Positions 2,834-42,409 of a DNA stretch of 64,000 bases are shown here, piece after piece. Position 1 is the first letter of the stretch. The number at the start of each line of letters is the position of its first letter. The position numbers were made by a program, and so were the translations under genes. Source of the DNA: Terriglobus sp. RCC_193 (GTDB lineage: Bacteria; Acidobacteriota; Terriglobia; Terriglobales; Acidobacteriaceae); contig NZ_JBFUPK010000002.1 in the NCBI RefSeq assembly GCF_041355105.1, positions 124,001 through 188,000 on the forward strand, read 5' to 3'. The notes under the pieces were generated by a model, which searched no databases, was not told the DNA's origin, and saw only the letters and a program-made list of their open reading frames with translations.

Positions 2834-3853
2834 TTACGCGACCGTGCGTCCCACCACCGGCGCAAGCTGACGAAGCTGGTTCACCAGCTTCTCCAACTGC
2901 TCCGGATACAACGACTGCGCGCCGTCGCTCATGGCCTTCTCCGGGTTCGGATGCATCTCCATCAGCAGGCCGTCTGCTCCGGCAGCCACCGAAGCCAGCG
3001 CCATCGGCGGAACAAACTCACGCTTGCCCACACCATGCGACGGATCACCCAGCACCGGCAGGTGTGTCAGCTTCTTCAACACCGGAATTGCCGAAATATC
3101 CATCGTGTTGCGCGTCGCCGTCTCAAAGGTGCGGATACCACGCTCGCACAACATCAGATCGTAGTTTCCACCGGACAGAATGTATTCGGCCGACAGCAGA
3201 ACCTCTTCAATCGTCGCCGCAATACCGCGCTTCAGCAGCACCGGCTTGCGCACATGGCCAAGTTCACGCAGCAGGTTGAAGTTCTGCATGTTGCGCGCGC
3301 CCACCTGGAAGCAGTCGATATACGGCAGCATCACTTCAATCTGCGAAATCTCCATCACTTCCGTGATGACCAACAGGCCGGTTTCATCGCCCACTTCACG
3401 CAGCAGCTTCAGGCCATCCACGCCCATGCCCTGGAAGCTGTACGGCGAAGAACGCGGCTTGTATGCGCCGCCACGCAGGAACTGTCCACCGGCAGCCTTC
3501 ACCTGCTGCGCGGAAAGGCGAATCTGCTCGCGCGATTCCACCGAGCACGGGCCTGCCATGATGGTGACATTCTCGCCGCCCACCTTCACGCCGTTGGAGA
3601 AGGTGATGACCGTTCCCTCCGGACGGAAGCCGCGGCCTGCCAGCTTGTACGGCGAAGAGATGCGATACGCCGTCTGTACGCCGGAGAGCACCTGGAATTC
3701 CGCCACATCAAACGCCGCCGGTGTACCCACACCCGCCAGGATCATCTGACCTTCACCGCTGGTGCGGTGCACATTGAAGCCGAGCTCCACCATCTGCTCA
3801 ATCACCGCCTGGATCTGCTCCCTGCTGGCGGTCCCCTGCATCACCACGATCAT
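2834..3853 (-). CDS. aroF: 3-deoxy-7-phosphoheptulonate (DAHP) synthase, type I-beta
   Basis: It catalyses the first step of the shikimate pathway, condensing phosphoenolpyruvate with erythrose 4-phosphate. The 339 residues begin with a ferredoxin-like regulatory domain of about 70 residues (MIVVMQGTASREQI onward), as in the Thermotoga enzyme, followed by the TIM barrel with MAGPCSVES, GGAYKPRSSPYSFQG, PVLLKRG, CERGIRTFE and DPSHGVGKRE, which carry the metal and substrate ligands. The N-terminal domain is the known site of Tyr or Phe feedback in this class. It lies 72 nt after the chorismate mutase gene in the same operon, so flux into chorismate and its Phe/Tyr branch are co-controlled. Confidence 0.95.
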   Translation of the reverse strand: MIVVMQGTASREQIQAVIEQMVELGFNVHRTSGEGQMILAGVGTPAAFDVAEFQVLSGVQTAYRISSPYKLAGRGFRPEGTVITFSNGVKVGGENVTIMAGPCSVESREQIRLSAQQVKAAGGQFLRGGAYKPRSSPYSFQGMGVDGLKLLREVGDETGLLVITEVMEISQIEVMLPYIDCFQVGARNMQNFNLLRELGHVRKPVLLKRGIAATIEEVLLSAEYILSGGNYDLMLCERGIRTFETATRNTMDISAIPVLKKLTHLPVLGDPSHGVGKREFVPPMALASVAAGADGLLMEMHPNPEKAMSDGAQSLYPEQLEKLVNQLRQLAPVVGRTVA

Positions 3854-3925: not shown

Positions 3926-4192
3926 TTACGCCTTCGGCTTCCGCTGCAATCCACGCATCACATCCATAATGCGTTCGTAAATGTCGGCCAGCTCCGCCTG
4001 CGGAATCTCGCCAGTGTTGCTCGCAGCGACATGGGCCAGAACAGCCTGTTCGCGCTCCGGTTCGTAGATGTTGCTGCCGCTCTGCGACTTCAACTCACCA
4101 ATGGCCGCGGCTGCTGCTGCGCGCTCGCACAGGAGCTTGACGATCTGCTCGTCGATACCATCGATCTTCTGCCGCCAGTCTGCAATCTCCAT
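3926..4192 (-). CDS. Chorismate mutase, AroQ class
   Basis: This 88-residue all-helical enzyme converts chorismate to prephenate. Compared with the E. coli mutase domain, the active-site residues line up with a constant offset of four: Arg7, Arg24, Lys35, Glu44 (for Asp48), Arg47 and Glu48. Nothing is fused to it, so it is a stand-alone monofunctional mutase feeding the separate tyrA and presumably a distant prephenate dehydratase. The gene lies between trpA (52 nt away) and DAHP synthase (72 nt away). In some bacteria AroQ binds DAHP synthase and gains activity; the adjacency fits that, but it is not shown here. Confidence 0.92.
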   Translation of the reverse strand: MEIADWRQKIDGIDEQIVKLLCERAAAAAAIGELKSQSGSNIYEPEREQAVLAHVAASNTGEIPQAELADIYERIMDVMRGLQRKPKA

Positions 4193-4244: not shown

Positions 4245-5006
4245 CTACGACCGCAAAGACTTCACGAATTTCCCAACATTTGTGGCCTCTTCACCGGCCT
4301 TGCTCTCTTCAATCAACTTCACAATCGCACTGCCGACAACCGCCGCGTCCGCAAATTCGCTCACCGAGCGTACATGCTCCGCCGTGGAGATGCCAAAACC
4401 CACCGCCACAGGAATCTTCGCAAACTGTTTCAGCCGCGCCACCAGCGATTCCGCATCGGAGGCAATCTGCGCCTGCGTCCCCGTAATTCCCACACGCGAA
4501 ATCGCATACACAAACCCCTTGCTATGCTCCGCAATGGCCTTCAAACGCTCATCCGGCGAAGTGGGCGCAGCCAGGAACACCGGAGCAAGATCGTTCTTCT
4601 GCATCTCCGCCAGGTACTCGTCCGCTTCTTCCACAATCATGTCCGTCAGCAGGACACCGTCTGCCCCTGCATCCTTCGCGGCCTTGCAGAACTCCGGCAA
4701 TCCCATACGAACCACGGGATTCAGATAGCTGAACAGGATGATGCCCGCCTGCGGCCGCGCCGCACGAATCTTTTTCGCCAGAGCCAGCACATCGCTCAAG
4801 CGCACGCCACGCGCCACGGCACGCTCACTGGCACGCTGAATCACCGGGCCATCCGCCAGCGGATCGCTGAACGGAACACCAAGCTCCAGCACCTGCGCAC
4901 CGTTATCAACCGCGGCCAGAGCAATGTCATATGTCGCATCGAGGGAAGGATCACCCGCGGTCAGATAGACAACCAGTCCAGGCTTGTTTGAGAAATCAAT
5001 CGCCAC
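4245..5006 (-). CDS. trpA: Tryptophan synthase alpha subunit
   Basis: It cleaves indole-3-glycerol phosphate to indole, which is channelled to the beta subunit. The 253-residue TIM barrel has catalytic Glu41 in LELGVPFSDP and Asp52 in LADGPVIQ, plus the phosphate-binding segments VGFGIST and VVGSAIV. Its start directly follows the trpB stop with no gap, so the two subunits are almost certainly translationally coupled. The length is close to the family norm of about 260. Confidence 0.96.
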   Translation of the reverse strand: MAIDFSNKPGLVVYLTAGDPSLDATYDIALAAVDNGAQVLELGVPFSDPLADGPVIQRASERAVARGVRLSDVLALAKKIRAARPQAGIILFSYLNPVVRMGLPEFCKAAKDAGADGVLLTDMIVEEADEYLAEMQKNDLAPVFLAAPTSPDERLKAIAEHSKGFVYAISRVGITGTQAQIASDAESLVARLKQFAKIPVAVGFGISTAEHVRSVSEFADAAVVGSAIVKLIEESKAGEEATNVGKFVKSLRS

Positions 5007-6242
5007 TTACAAACCCTTCCCTTCGGCTCCGCGCAGGTCCATCTCATTCGCCAGAATGCCCATATCTTTATCGCCGCGACCACTCACGTTGATCATGATG
5101 ATCTTGTCTTTGCCAAGTGTTGGCGCGACTTTAATCGCATGTGCCACAGCGTGGGCTGACTCCAGCGCAGGCAGAATACCTTCGGTCTGCGCCAGCACCT
5201 TCACCGCATTCAATGCCTCGTTATCCGTGGCGCTGACATACTCCGCGCGCTTCTGGTCATGCAGCATGGCGTGCTCAGGACCGACGCTGGCATAGTCCAA
5301 TCCCGCGCTGACAGAATGCGTGGAAGCCACCTGTCCCGCATCGTCCTGTAACACGTAGCTATACGTGCCTTGCAATACGCCCGGCAGACCACCACTGAAA
5401 CGCGCCGCATGTTCACCAAGCGCCGTGCCACGGCCACCAGCTTCAACACCAATCAGGCGAACATTCGCATCCGGGATGAACTCATAGAACGCGCCAATCG
5501 CATTCGATCCGCCGCCCACGCACGCAATCACCACATCCGGATTGCGTCCCACCTGCTCCGCAAACTGCTGCTTCGCTTCCTTGCTGATGACGCGATGAAA
5601 GTCGCGCACCATCGTTGGATACGGATGCGATCCGAGCGCCGAACCCAGGATGTAAAACGTGTCGCGAACATTGGTAACCCAGTCACGCATCGCTTCGTTG
5701 ATGGCATCCTTCAGCGTGGCCGAACCGGCAGAAACACCGCGTACTTCAGCGCCCAGAAGATGCATACGCAGCACATTCAACTCCTGCCGACGCATGTCTT
5801 CTTCGCCCATATAGATAACGCAATCAAGGCCCAGCAGAGCACATACGGTCGCCGTGGCCACACCGTGCTGTCCCGCGCCCGTCTCCGCGATGATGCGCTT
5901 CTTGCCCATGCGCTTCGCCAGCAGGCCCTGGCCCAGAGCGTTGTTGATCTTGTGCGCGCCGGTATGCAGCAGGTCTTCGCGCTTCAGGTAAATCTGCGCG
6001 CCGCCCAGCTCCTGGCTCAAACGCTTCGCGTAATACAGCGGCGTGGGACGTCCGACGTAGTGCTTCAGCAGATCCGCCAGTTCCGCCTGAAATGCTGCAT
6101 CGTCACGAGCCTGCACATAGGCCTGTTCCAGTTCCAGGAGCGCCGCCATCAGCGTCTCCGGCACATAGCGGCCGCCGTACGCGCCAAAGCGCCCCGTTCC
6201 CAGCGAGCGGCTTATTTCCGTTGTCGATTCCACAACCGGCAT
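5007..6242 (-). CDS. trpB: Tryptophan synthase beta subunit
   Basis: This PLP enzyme joins indole and serine to make tryptophan. The 411 residues include the PLP lysine at about residue 98 in HTGAHKINN, the catalytic Glu in AETGAGQHG and the phosphate-binding loop [10 protein letters not shown]. It is the first structural gene of the minus-strand aromatic operon. Its 5' leader carries an apparent attenuator (terminator at 6276-6309, leader ORF at 6362-6442). trpC and trpF lie in a separate unit at 6989-8480, so the trp genes are split with a small plus-strand gene between. Confidence 0.97.
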
Positions 6243-6275
6243 CTCTTGCTGTCCCTCTGCGTCTGTCCTGCGTTC

Positions 6276-6309
6276 AAAACTAAAAACCGCGGCCCTAGTG
6301 GGTCCGCGG
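6276..6309 (-). terminator. Intrinsic terminator in the trpB leader (attenuator)
   Basis: On the minus strand CCGCGG-A-CCC, loop ACTA, then GGGCCGCGG forms a 9-bp stem with one bulged A, followed at once by TTTTTAGTTTT. It ends about 34 nt before the trpB ATG and no minus-strand gene lies upstream for it to terminate. A terminator placed between promoter and first gene is the signature of transcription attenuation. The pairing is read directly from sequence; activity is inferred. Confidence 0.75.
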
Positions 6310-6390
6310 CTCCGGGAATCTCTGATCTCTTACTCTGCTGCCCTGGTCTGACAGCGATTGCTTAGAGAGCGTGTTCCATTGGCGCCGCGG
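6304..6390 (-). promoter_or_regulatory. Candidate antiterminator pairing of the aromatic operon leader
   Basis: The minus-strand segment CCGCGGCGCC (6390 to 6381) can pair with GGAGCCGCGG (6313 to 6304) at 9 of 10 positions. The second segment is the 5' arm of the terminator, so the two structures exclude each other. The first segment lies just downstream of the aromatic codons of the leader ORF. A ribosome stalled on those codons would leave it free to form the antiterminator; a ribosome running on to the stop would cover it and allow termination. This is inference from base pairing. Confidence 0.6.
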
Positions 6391-6442
6391 GGGTTGCCCC
6401 GTAACGGAAAGTAAATCGCCAAAAATAGACAGAACGCACCAT
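6362..6442 (-). CDS. Putative aromatic-rich attenuator leader peptide (26 aa)
   Basis: The minus-strand ORF starts at ATG 6442 and ends at TAA 6362-6364. Residues 5-14 read VYFWRFTFRY, with six aromatic residues (Tyr, Phe, Trp, Phe, Phe, Tyr) in nine positions. All three aromatic amino acids are represented, matching the operon downstream, which makes tryptophan, chorismate/prephenate and tyrosine precursors. A weak AGGTAGG lies about 10 nt upstream of the ATG. The ORF ends about 53 nt before the terminator stem. The reading frame is certain; translation and the regulatory role are inferred from composition and position. Confidence 0.65.
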   Translation of the reverse strand: MVRSVYFWRFTFRYGATPAAPMEHAL

Positions 6443-6562
6443 CAGGGAAAAGCCTACCTGAAATTGCGCTCTTTGAAAAGGAAACCTTCGCGGCAACAAC
6501 CACCATCCATCCCCATCACGTGCGTTGGCCGAGTCCCCAAACGGCCTCGCGGGAGCGATGCG

Positions 6563-6895
6563 ATGTTCTTAAAACAAATGGCAGCAGCAGTTGCAATGGC
6601 AGGTTTGCTGGCTCCTTTTGCAGCAATGGCGCAGGAATCTCACGCCGACGCCAAGGCCCAGGTGGAAGAGCGTGATGCGCATCATCACAATAAGGCGAAG
6701 ATCGTGGGTGGCTCCGCCGCGGGCGGGGCAGCTACAGGAGCACTTGTGGGTGGCCCCGTGGGCGCCGCGGTCGGTGCAGGTGTAGGCGCAACAGGCGGTG
6801 TGGTCGCCAACAAGGCACGCAAGCACAACTCCATCAAGAAGCGCGAGGAAACTGCGCGTCCGGACGAACCCAGAAATGACGAACCCAGAAACTAA
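6563..6895 (+). CDS. Secreted glycine-zipper protein
   Basis: The 110-residue product begins MFLKQMAAAVAMAGLLAPFAAMAQ, a signal peptide with an AMA-Q cleavage site. Then come a His-rich charged stretch (DAHHHNK), a glycine-zipper hairpin at about residues 48-83 (GGSAAGGAATGALVGGPVGAAVGAGVGATGG) and a basic, then acidic tail with a repeated DEPRN. Glycine-zipper proteins of this size sit in the periplasm or outer membrane. I chose ATG 6563 because GGGAG lies 8 nt upstream and the signal peptide begins there. It is convergent with trpF and unrelated to the trp genes. Confidence 0.75.
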   Translation: MFLKQMAAAVAMAGLLAPFAAMAQESHADAKAQVEERDAHHHNKAKIVGGSAAGGAATGALVGGPVGAAVGAGVGATGGVVANKARKHNSIKKREETARPDEPRNDEPRN

Positions 6896-6961: not shown

Positions 6962-6992
6962 GGGCGAGCGGCGACGGCTGCTCGCCCTTTAT
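6962..6992 (+). terminator. Terminator after the glycine-zipper gene
   Basis: GGGCGAGC at 6962-6969 pairs with GCTCGCCC at 6980-6987 and is followed by TTTATC. It lies between the convergent glycine-zipper gene and trpF and overlaps the trpF stop. A second small hairpin, GTCCT/AGGAC, lies just upstream near 6940-6957. Confidence 0.6.
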
Positions 6993-7672
6993 CTTTCCGT
7001 TGAGCCGTTCCGTGCGGCATGAACAAACTGCTGCATCCGTGCTGCATCCTTCACACCTGGCGCAGATTCCACACCGCTGGAAATATCCACGCCCCACGGC
7101 CTGAGGACACGCACTGCCTCCGCCACATTCTCCGGACGCAAACCACCTGCGGCAATCACCGGCAACGGCGCCTCCTGCACTACCGAAGCGGCTGCGCCCC
7201 AATCAAACGTCACTCCTGTGCCGCCGCTGCCCTGCTTCGTCCGCGAATCCATCAAAGCGGCATCCACCAGGTTGGAATCCGCCAGTGCCGATAATTCCGC
7301 ACGCAGCCGTTCCTGTTGCAGTTCCGCAGGCTCATCCACGTCCCAATGCACCACCTGGATCAGCCGCGGCGCATCGCTCTTCGGAAAACGCAGACGCAAA
7401 GCAGATGCCAGCGCCGCGTCGAACGCTCCGTGGATCTGGATACCCGTGATTCCCGCCGCCTCTGCTGTACGCAGAATGAACTCCGGATCGCGTTGGGTAA
7501 ACACACCAAACGTGGCTACGTGGGACGGCAACTGCGAAGTAATCGTCCGCACATGCTCCGCCGTCACCAGCCGCTTGCCATGCGCAAAGATGAACCCCAG
7601 CGCGTCCACGCCCAGTTCAACGGCGCGCTGGCAATCCTCCAGTCGCGTATTGCCGCAGATTTTCACCCACAT
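6989..7672 (-). CDS. trpF: Phosphoribosylanthranilate isomerase
   Basis: It performs the Amadori rearrangement of N-(5-phosphoribosyl)anthranilate, the third step to tryptophan. The 227-residue barrel starts MWVKICGNTR with the catalytic Cys at position 6, and it has the catalytic Asp in LMDSRTKQGSGGTG and the phosphate site AAGGLRPENV. I chose ATG 7672 because homology begins there and a GGAG lies about 10 nt upstream; it starts 7 nt after the trpC stop. trpC and trpF are separate genes here, not fused as in enteric bacteria. Confidence 0.95.
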   Translation of the reverse strand: MWVKICGNTRLEDCQRAVELGVDALGFIFAHGKRLVTAEHVRTITSQLPSHVATFGVFTQRDPEFILRTAEAAGITGIQIHGAFDAALASALRLRFPKSDAPRLIQVVHWDVDEPAELQQERLRAELSALADSNLVDAALMDSRTKQGSGGTGVTFDWGAAASVVQEAPLPVIAAGGLRPENVAEAVRVLRPWGVDISSGVESAPGVKDAARMQQFVHAARNGSTER

Positions 7673-7679
7673 GGGAACG

Positions 7680-8480
7680 CTACTCCGCCGCCACAAGCTG
7701 CGGTTGCAGAAGAGCAGCCAATGCATCGCCCGGATCATCCTTCCGCATCAGCGATTCGCCGATCAGAAACGCGTCATACCCTGCACCCAACATGCGACGG
7801 ATGTCCGCGGACGAACCAATACCGCTCTCCGCCACACGCACAGCATCCGTTGGCAGCAGCTCCGCCAGCTTCTCCGCTTCTGCCGTGTTCACTTCAAAGG
7901 TGCGCAGATTGCGGCTGTTCACACCGAACATCTCGCATCCCAGATCCAGCGCCCGGGCCAGTTCTTCGCGATCGTGCACCTCGCACAACACATCCAACTC
8001 TGCGTTCTTCGCAGCCGCGCGCAACGTCCGAAGCTCCGCATCCGACAGCGCCGCCACAATCAGCAGAATGGCATCCGCTCGATGCGCACGCGCCTCCACA
8101 ATCTGAAACTCGTCGACCATGAAGTCTTTGCGCAGGCATGGCAGCTTCACCGATTGCGAAGCAATCTCCAGGTTCCGCAACGAGCCCTGAAAAAATGGCT
8201 CATCCGTCAGCACACTCAGGCACGCCGCACCGCCACGCTCCAACGACTGCGCCAGCCATGCCGGATCAAACTCCGGTCGGATCAACCCCTTGCTAGGAGA
8301 AGCCTTTTTCAACTCCGCAATCACCGCCGGACGCGTCTTCGCAGCCATACGCAATGCCGCGGCAAATCCACGCGGCGTATGGTCGGCGGCCATCCGCTCC
8401 AATTCACGCAAACGGTCGGGCGACCGCTGCTGCGCAAGTGCAATGCGGGTCTGAACAAGTATGCGATCAAGATGCGTCAT
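7680..8480 (-). CDS. trpC: Indole-3-glycerol phosphate synthase
   Basis: It closes the indole ring, the step before tryptophan synthase. The 266-residue barrel has AELKKASPSKGLI with the substrate-binding Lys, LRKDFMVDEFQI with the catalytic Lys, and GVNSRNLRTFEV and ESGIGSSADI at the phosphate site. The start at 8480 has an AGGAA 7-8 nt upstream. It is followed closely by trpF, and tRNA-Leu lies 106 nt upstream on the same strand, separated by a strong hairpin. Confidence 0.95.
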   Translation of the reverse strand: MTHLDRILVQTRIALAQQRSPDRLRELERMAADHTPRGFAAALRMAAKTRPAVIAELKKASPSKGLIRPEFDPAWLAQSLERGGAACLSVLTDEPFFQGSLRNLEIASQSVKLPCLRKDFMVDEFQIVEARAHRADAILLIVAALSDAELRTLRAAAKNAELDVLCEVHDREELARALDLGCEMFGVNSRNLRTFEVNTAEAEKLAELLPTDAVRVAESGIGSSADIRRMLGAGYDAFLIGESLMRKDDPGDALAALLQPQLVAAE

Positions 8481-8535
8481 GGCTGTTCCTAATGCTAAAC
8501 CCGGCCGGGAAGGAGACTGTAAATTCCACAAATGC

Positions 8536-39130: not shown

Positions 39131-42409
<3,279 letters not shown>

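Follow-up and report, generated by a model that had tools for sequence, protein, structure and literature searches.

A candidate ribosome-mediated attenuator with phenylalanine, tyrosine and tryptophan control codons ahead of aromatic amino acid genes in Acidobacteriota

Introduction

Control of aromatic amino acid synthesis is known mainly through repressors, attenuators centred on Trp or Phe, TRAP and T-boxes. Acidobacteriota are abundant soil bacteria that have been little studied. Multivalent branched-chain and threonine leaders are known, for instance those of the ilvGMEDA and thr operons. The leader described here resembles them in that one leader covers several amino acids sharing a pathway; theirs differ in the amino acids, and each stands before a single operon and not before a set of aromatic genes. 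Both operons are listed in the available part of PMC1183508.

AroR, a Phe-Tyr-Phe leader before aroF of C. glutamicum (PMC11802643, PMC4046766; Neshat 2014), responds to Phe limitation and not to Tyr according to the accessible portion of a review (PMC11802643). The present element is analogous to AroR in layout, AroR having mixed aromatic codons before a DAHP synthase gene. In contrast, AroR has no Trp reported in those portions, three control residues and an ineffective Tyr, and belongs to another phylum. Since the Tyr codon of AroR gives no response, codon presence alone is no proof of sensing. A first-pass annotation of the present DNA had stated that known leaders respond to Trp or Phe alone, which has to be corrected in view of the Phe-Tyr-Phe codons of AroR (PMC11802643, as far as the available text goes). 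In E. coli, trpL and pheL are leader ORFs whose control codons attenuate the operon behind them (same review, same portion). Our locus shares this plan of control-codon ORF and predicted attenuation, whereas each E. coli leader reads one amino acid. The uORFC-13-1 motif before aroF, confined to Acholeplasma and environmental sequences in the accessible text of PMC8632094, likewise combines a predicted uORF, with Phe codon(s), and a terminator before DAHP synthase. In Actinobacteria, trp attenuators have conserved triple complementary segments, as here, but Trp codons only, and no conserved RNA structures were found before Phe or Tyr operons, in the part of PMC1262725 available. Acidobacteria were among the groups covered by a survey of leader genes that lie near structural genes, which has reinitiation as its subject, and in Naville and Gautheret (2010) almost no predicted acidobacterial attenuator has an associated function, both as given in the accessible extracts.

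Among the matches listed in the open-licence literature, we found no description of an acidobacterial or a three-aromatic leader, and an earlier prediction is possible. The first-pass annotation had regarded a mixed Y/F/W leader in Acidobacteriota as undescribed; a mixed aromatic leader as such is known in AroR. Compared with classical ribosome-mediated attenuation, the novel points are the proposed input of three amino acids, the regulon, the phylum and the predicted leaderless start.

An aromatic leader ahead of trpB

The window, that is, the whole stretch of 64,000 nucleotides analysed, carries an aromatic operon on its minus strand. It begins with trpB (5007-6242; PF00291, called TrpB from its sequence and its position ahead of trpA) and continues with trpA (4245-5006; PF00290), a type II chorismate mutase (3926-4192; PF01817), a DAHP synthase with a ferredoxin-like domain (2834-3853; PF00793, PF18152), a dienelactone hydrolase family protein (2048-2806; PF01738) and prephenate dehydrogenase (tyrA, 1212-2051; PF02153, PF20463). 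Pfam thus confirmed the genes of the combined trp/aro/tyr operon that had been proposed behind the leader. The dienelactone hydrolase family gene lies inside the aromatic operon at 11 of the 65 leader loci treated below, all of them in the source genus. Upstream of the leader, the same strand carries trpF and trpC (6989-8531). A small plus-strand gene (6566-6895) with a glycine-zipper match below the Pfam cut-off separates trpF from the leader, so that the trp genes fall into two likely transcription units. Because this gene separates trpF and trpC from the leader, the latter probably has a promoter of its own.

The leader ORF (6442-6362, minus strand) has 26 codons plus a stop and encodes MVRSVYFWRFTFRYGATPAAPMEHAL. 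It runs from an ATG at 6442-6440 to a TAA that ends at 6362; counted from a TTG at 6499, the open frame would have 45 codons. Its control codons, Y-F-W-R-F-T-F-R-Y (6427-6401, minus strand), comprise six aromatic residues in nine. The intrinsic terminator (helix 3:4 with its U tract; 6313-6276, minus strand, -21.9 kcal/mol) follows, and trpB begins 33 nt past it. The terminator reads GGAGCCGCGG-A-CCC/ACTA/GGG-CCGCGGTTTT at 6313-6283, with the U tract extending to 6276; it was missing from the output of a simple terminator scan, presumably owing to the bulged A. Segment 3, GGAGCCGCGG (6313-6304, minus strand), is common to terminator and antiterminator, and can alternatively pair at 9 of 10 positions with segment 2, CCGCGGCGCC (6390-6381, minus strand), the antiterminator 5′ strand. 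The first-pass annotation had described the 26-codon leader with Y/F/W/F/F/Y within nine codons, the terminator hairpin behind it and the 9-of-10 alternative pairing of the terminator 5′ arm just after the control codons, and all three were recovered on the minus strand. It made no mention of a further hairpin, the protector 1:2 (6422-6379, minus strand; fold -17.5 kcal/mol), which pairs TTGGCG (6422-6417) with CGCCAA (6384-6379), CCG (6407-6405) with CGG (6387-6385), and CGGGG (6401-6397) with CCCCG (6392-6388).

The whole-leader fold is only mildly better than shuffles (z -1.85). At least six aromatic codons in nine stop-free codons turned up in 267 of 20000 upstream regions simulated with a Markov model, each 318 nt long and of the same composition. 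On both strands of the window, 4 of 103596 stop-free nine-codon stretches have at least six aromatic codons, the leader itself included. The only other such site is at 39143-39175 on the plus strand (three overlapping stretches). From aromatic richness alone, chance is only moderately unlikely, and the case for the predicted leader rests on comparison.

Two helices covary in relatives

For the window and 54 further loci, we read the 500 nt that precede trpB (170 nt only at L106). Each of the 19 genus genomes contained a TrpB, which also had a match, sometimes weak, in 145 of the 150 genomes of the family sample. An aromatic leader precedes trpB in all 19 genus genomes, where the leader ORF of the window is kept, and at 7 of 36 other family loci; this count leaves aside aromatic ORFs at L110, L112 and L115 as well as additional ones in the window and at L083, L095, L123 and L125. 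For the trpB alignment, 26 of the 55 sequences were retained, only leaders at the trpB start being used. The leader peptide has the consensus F-x-x-F-T-[FY]-R-Y-W, followed by V-A-A.

Helix 1:2 is built from the control codons themselves, CGC UAC UG (Arg-Tyr-Trp) pairing with CA GUA GCG (Val-Ala). Where residues differ, the partner often changes along, as in CGCUCUUG/CAAGAGCG at L130, CGCUCCUG/CAGGAGCG at L127 and GGC/GCC at L129, and in the lineage of the window the register is shifted to CGGGG/CCCCG. In the MAFFT alignment of the 26 trpB leaders, which was not fitted to the model structure, helix 1:2 has 88.0% standard pairs and 15 doubly changed cells against a shuffled mean of 4.1, a count that 0 of 500 shuffles reached. 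Corresponding values for helix 3:4 were 92.0% and 12 against 4.7 (0 of 500); its 3 pairs changed on both sides were reached by 180 of 500 shuffles. Helix 2:3 showed no covariation among these 26 leaders (2 doubly changed cells against 2.0 in shuffles), and its 72.4% of paired cells was reached by 375 of 500 shuffles. By contrast, the core of the antiterminator, GCGGC/GCCGC, hardly varies, GCGGC being present in 26/26 trpB leaders and in 63 of the 65 leaders overall. Segment 2 is in frame 0 in 51 of the 65 and in another frame in 13, and in the remaining one (L128) it comes past the stop codon. As GCGGC is kept across different reading frames, a constraint on the peptide cannot explain its conservation. 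Helices 1:2 and 3:4 over the 65 leaders, which represent several gene classes (L171, cut by runs of N, was left out), comprise 19 pairs, of which 11 are changed on both sides. Of the cells, 93.2% are paired and 67 are doubly changed, whereas shuffles averaged 14.5 of the latter (0 of 500 reach); these counts lean towards the model, because the alignment was fitted to its structure.

An alignment of relatives had been suggested at first pass as a check on the element. In it, the aromatic codons are conserved throughout the genus and the terminator covaries in both alignments. The alternative pairing is conserved as GCGGC/GCCGC, without covariation of 2:3.

A chance ORF ahead of an ordinary terminator would be compatible with equally aromatic-rich stretches in 1.3% of simulated upstream regions. 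Against it stand the conservation, the covariation and the recurrence at several genes. Moreover, the terminator is not simply the end of the upstream neighbour (6566-6895), as that gene is encoded on the plus strand. The chance-ORF and plain-terminator readings are both rejected by conservation, and we give the former almost no credence.

The same data bear on whether the nascent leader peptide could itself arrest the ribosome, as TnaC does, and so sense an aromatic amino acid in its free form. The motif F-T-[FY]-R-Y-W is conserved, and Thr at -2, found in 45 of the 65 leaders, has no helix to explain it. Most of the conserved leader residues are also paired in the RNA, however, Thr at -2 being unpaired: the conservation of Arg-Tyr and Val-Ala is that of the pairing CGCUAC/GUAGCG, with compensatory changes when residues change. 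Furthermore, aromatic residues interchange (Y/F at -1), and outside the family the peptides share little beyond aromatic content. Peptide arrest has lost most of its support because the Arg-Tyr and Val-Ala codons form a covarying helix, and it now appears improbable.

Predicted response to ribosome position

Each leader was folded with the ribosomal A site at every codon; all sequence as far as 12 nt from that codon's first base was removed, and the folds were run to the end of segment 3. The mean probability of helix 2:3, P(2:3), was 0.94-0.96 with the A site on F-T-Y-R-Y-W, 0.31 one codon on, 0.06 at the next, 0.02 or less beyond and 0 at the stop. Shortening or lengthening the footprint by 3 nt shifts the switch position by one codon. 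In ribosome-free folds, P(2:3) across leaders had a mean of 0.34 and a median of 0.07. Aromatic codons had a mean P(2:3) of 0.73 against 0.40 for permuted labels (maximum 0.454 of 2000). The ORF starts behind these figures, and behind the start-site and codon counts over the 65 leaders, were chosen by script for maximal aromatic content, and some (e.g., L135, L103, L151, L155) may be wrong. The aromatic share was 97% at position -3, 88% at -1, 92% at +1 and 80% at +2.

In the window leader, the ribosome-free truncated transcript has a P(2:3) of 0.91 (1.0 for the aroK leader L137 described below), and the 1:2 hairpin is less stable than 2:3 at equilibrium. Because 2:3 is favoured without the ribosome, 1:2 of the window would protect only if formed first during transcription. 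The only Trp codon of the window leader is codon 8, and it lacks the Trp at +2 that 50 of the 65 leaders carry. Since 2:3 is favoured in the window at all codons up to 15, all six aromatic codons, including Trp 8, can count, and antitermination is predicted with the ribosome on any of the control codons.

The locus thus carries an aromatic leader ORF, an intervening terminator, an antiterminator exclusive with it and a protector hairpin over the control codons. By this anatomy, the putative element is a classical ribosome-mediated attenuator with an unusual input of three amino acids. The ORF, its codons, the three helices with covariation of two, the recurrence and the gene context can all be read directly from the genomes compared. 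From sequence and modelled folds together, ribosome-mediated attenuation with an aromatic input is highly probable. The input proposed is charged tRNA-Phe, tRNA-Tyr and tRNA-Trp together; how evenly the three count is a separate matter, taken up below.

We infer the following course for the promoter, the stalling, the readthrough and the response to each amino acid. Transcription would start at the leader ATG or within a few bases upstream of it, and a ribosome would translate the leader while trailing RNA polymerase. Scarcity of any one of the aminoacyl-tRNAs for Phe, Tyr and Trp would stall the ribosome on the Y/F/W codons. These codons form or cover the 5′ strand of 1:2, so the stall would free segment 2 to pair with segment 3; no terminator would then form, allowing synthesis of the trpBA products and of chorismate mutase, DAHP synthase and prephenate dehydrogenase. 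With all three plentiful, the ribosome would run over segment 2, helix 3:4 would form and transcription would stop before trpB. The same device at aroK in this genome and at DAHP synthase in other genera would make up an aromatic regulon. Reading all three end products of the shared shikimate pathway would amount to an AND-type shut-off, off only when all are plentiful, which would suit the needs of a shared pathway.

Predicted start of the leader transcript

A -10-like hexamer, TAGGCT (6451-6456, minus strand), ends 8 nt ahead of the leader ATG, and a putative, weak -35-like hexamer, TTTTCA, was read from the sequence at 6474-6479 on the same strand. A consensus promoter scan found nothing, so the promoter is read from comparison only. 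TANNNT ending 7-11 nt before the leader start codon is present in 51 of the 65 leaders; in 200 shuffles the number averaged 5.4 and never exceeded 12. By eye, it often appears as TGTATNNT with TTGC farther upstream, and TTGC stands at roughly -35 distance in many relatives. No Shine-Dalgarno signal was found at the leader ORFs (mean -1.68 kcal/mol versus -2.34 kcal/mol in shuffled sequence), whereas one is present at the genes behind them (mean -5.07 kcal/mol, 60 genes). The position of TANNNT and the missing Shine-Dalgarno signal therefore lead us to predict a leaderless or near-leaderless leader transcript, starting within a few bases of the ATG. AroR is reported to be leaderless.

Leaders at other aromatic genes

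A covariance model, R1, was built on the trpB leader, and a broader one, R2, was built later. R1 gave a second strong match in the window's own genome, on another contig (L137, 1001-1160), ahead of shikimate kinase (aroK). The predicted peptide there is MTQFTQPVSFWYRYCFTGAAPADSAVLKH, with Phe, Tyr and Trp codons. By tblastn, the 65 leaders precede trpB-led operons (31), aroK (17), DAHP synthase as first gene (13) and chorismate mutase followed by DAHP synthase (4). Aromatic genes thus lie behind 65/65 leaders. The DAHP-synthase-linked copies are in other genera, and at one of the 13 DAHP-synthase-first loci (L153) a chorismate mutase gene lies farther along. The predicted attenuator is thus not specific to the trpB operon and belongs to an aromatic regulon that includes aroK and DAHP synthase.

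We quote counts at an E value of 0.01, as counts at 0.1 per genome include chance matches. In the order sample, R2 matched 168 of 298 genomes, all but one in the host family, and, under strict filters, 35 of 70 genera. In the phylum sample it matched 55 of 396 genomes, 35 of them in the host family, with about 4 chance matches expected at E 0.01 per genome. Among 50 named loci (of 80) searched by model, two matched, in a Granulicella MAG (L004) and an Acidobacteriaceae MAG (L003). Rfam gave only tRNAs at the gathering score in the window and six other loci, with no leader, T-box or riboswitch match; the weak matches were Ocean-VII (E 7.7, window 6230-6480) and gyrA (E 2.9, L137 leader). As no Rfam family matched, the element has no detectable relation to the Rfam leader families.

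Several candidates were set aside. Two weak matches in the window's own genome, L190 (R1, E 0.0024) and L191 (R2, E 0.005), have no aromatic leader before an aromatic gene. L193 (genome G144, inside the family) and L192 (the third match in genome G285) match the model without an aromatic leader. In four genomes of the genus, no convincing leader was found within about 1.5 kb of genes for prephenate dehydratase or for chorismate-binding enzymes (trpE/pabB type); the only high-scoring ORF near such a gene (L262) is on the strand opposite to it.

Terminated leaders would release a short RNA, and the peTrpL of Sinorhizobium is a reported precedent for a trans-acting leader RNA or peptide (PMC7298713, available in part). 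The transcript might likewise act mainly in trans as a small RNA, or the peptide might be the product, with attenuation secondary. However, all 65 elements lie in cis ahead of an aromatic gene, and the elements that covary are those that cis control requires, which makes a mainly trans-acting role very improbable.

Control codons and the genes behind them

Of the 65 leaders, 60 contain codons for each of Phe, Tyr and Trp, 51 of them within the six-codon zone F-T-Y-R-Y-W, and Trp codons are found in 61. The four leaders lacking Trp (L160, L166, L168 and L170) are the four with chorismate mutase first; DAHP synthase follows it there and no trp gene was found at these loci. As the four belong to one genus, they probably represent one event. 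Trp is kept in L153, where DAHP synthase comes first and chorismate mutase farther along.

The comparison outside the family covered 18 leaders, of which 7 came from R2 matches and 11 from a scan of DAHP synthase loci. Of the 20 R2 matches outside the family, 13 were inspected and 8 are aromatic leaders before aromatic genes (L177-L182, L184, L186). One of them, L179, has its start cut by a contig end, and as it shares its genus with L178, the codon comparison was made without it; the other five inspected (L183, L185, L187-L189) are not aromatic leaders before aromatic genes. The locus scan gave 14 matches in 60 loci, hand-picked among the matches listed, against 1 in shuffled sequence. Three of the 14 were dropped (L229 twice, L245 on the minus strand) as no aromatic gene was visible behind them.

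Fourteen of these 18 leaders precede chorismate mutase or prephenate dehydratase operons, and 10 of the 14 have no Trp in the 12-residue cluster (e.g., QYFYFYYFYLK, RFYFYFYF, AYYYGFYT, FFPFSF). The other four precede DAHP synthase alone or with trpE, such as YWWYYWF before DAHP synthase-trpE; L177, among these four, has no Trp. Trp makes up 4 of 96 aromatic codons in the former group versus 8 of 32 in the latter (Fisher test on codon shares, p 0.0017; Trp presence alone is not significant, p 0.25), with genes assigned by sequence similarity and reading of N-termini and classes set by hand. Because related loci are not independent and the classes are hand-assigned, this trend is a strong hint, not proof, that codon content follows operon content. 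The codon differences among operon types amount to a natural experiment.

These codon counts also bear on whether a real attenuator might answer mainly to one or two aromatics, such as Phe, the others being minor or structural. As the Tyr codon in the F-Y-F leader AroR is without effect according to the accessible text of PMC11802643, one or two of the three aromatics may dominate here as well. In addition, Phe TTT at -3 is the most constant control codon (62/65), and Tyr at +1 and Arg at 0 double as parts of helix 1:2. The retention of Trp codons in 61 of the 65 leaders, and their absence only from four chorismate-mutase-led operons of one genus, argue otherwise, as does the low Trp share outside the family in Phe/Tyr-branch operons compared with the others. 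A dominant single or double input, which overlaps with the three-input reading, is possible though doubtful, and we infer that all three aromatic amino acids are sensed.

We think it likely that Acidobacteriota possess an aromatic regulon in which one leader module reading Phe, Tyr and Trp serves trpB, aroK and DAHP synthase genes, with operon-tuned codons and leaderless translation. Tuning here refers to the few or no Trp codons before chorismate mutase and prephenate dehydratase operons. To our knowledge, no three-input aromatic attenuator has been known earlier, and leader peptides would, if this is true, be a principal aromatic regulator in the phylum.

Phe at -3 (6415-6413 in the window) is TTT in 62 leaders and TTC in one, and no helix explains this preference; the seven aromatic-operon and trp genes of the window use TTT 34 times versus TTC 32 times. 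According to the available part of Elf and Ehrenberg, the sensitivity of attenuation depends on which synonymous control codon is used, and the near-fixed TTT may be a sensitivity-tuned synonymous choice.

Aromatic leaders in other acidobacterial families (L178, L180, L181, L182, L184, L186, L197, L200, L205, L215, L216, L241, L242, L243, L245, L249 and L252) precede chorismate mutase, prephenate dehydratase and DAHP synthase operons, and have little sequence in common with the family leader, which suggests deep divergence or repeated origin. L177 (601-780) has an element resembling these leaders, in which F/Y codons are combined with a strong terminator; DAHP synthase follows at a distance of about 1 kb, and no clear gene separates the two.
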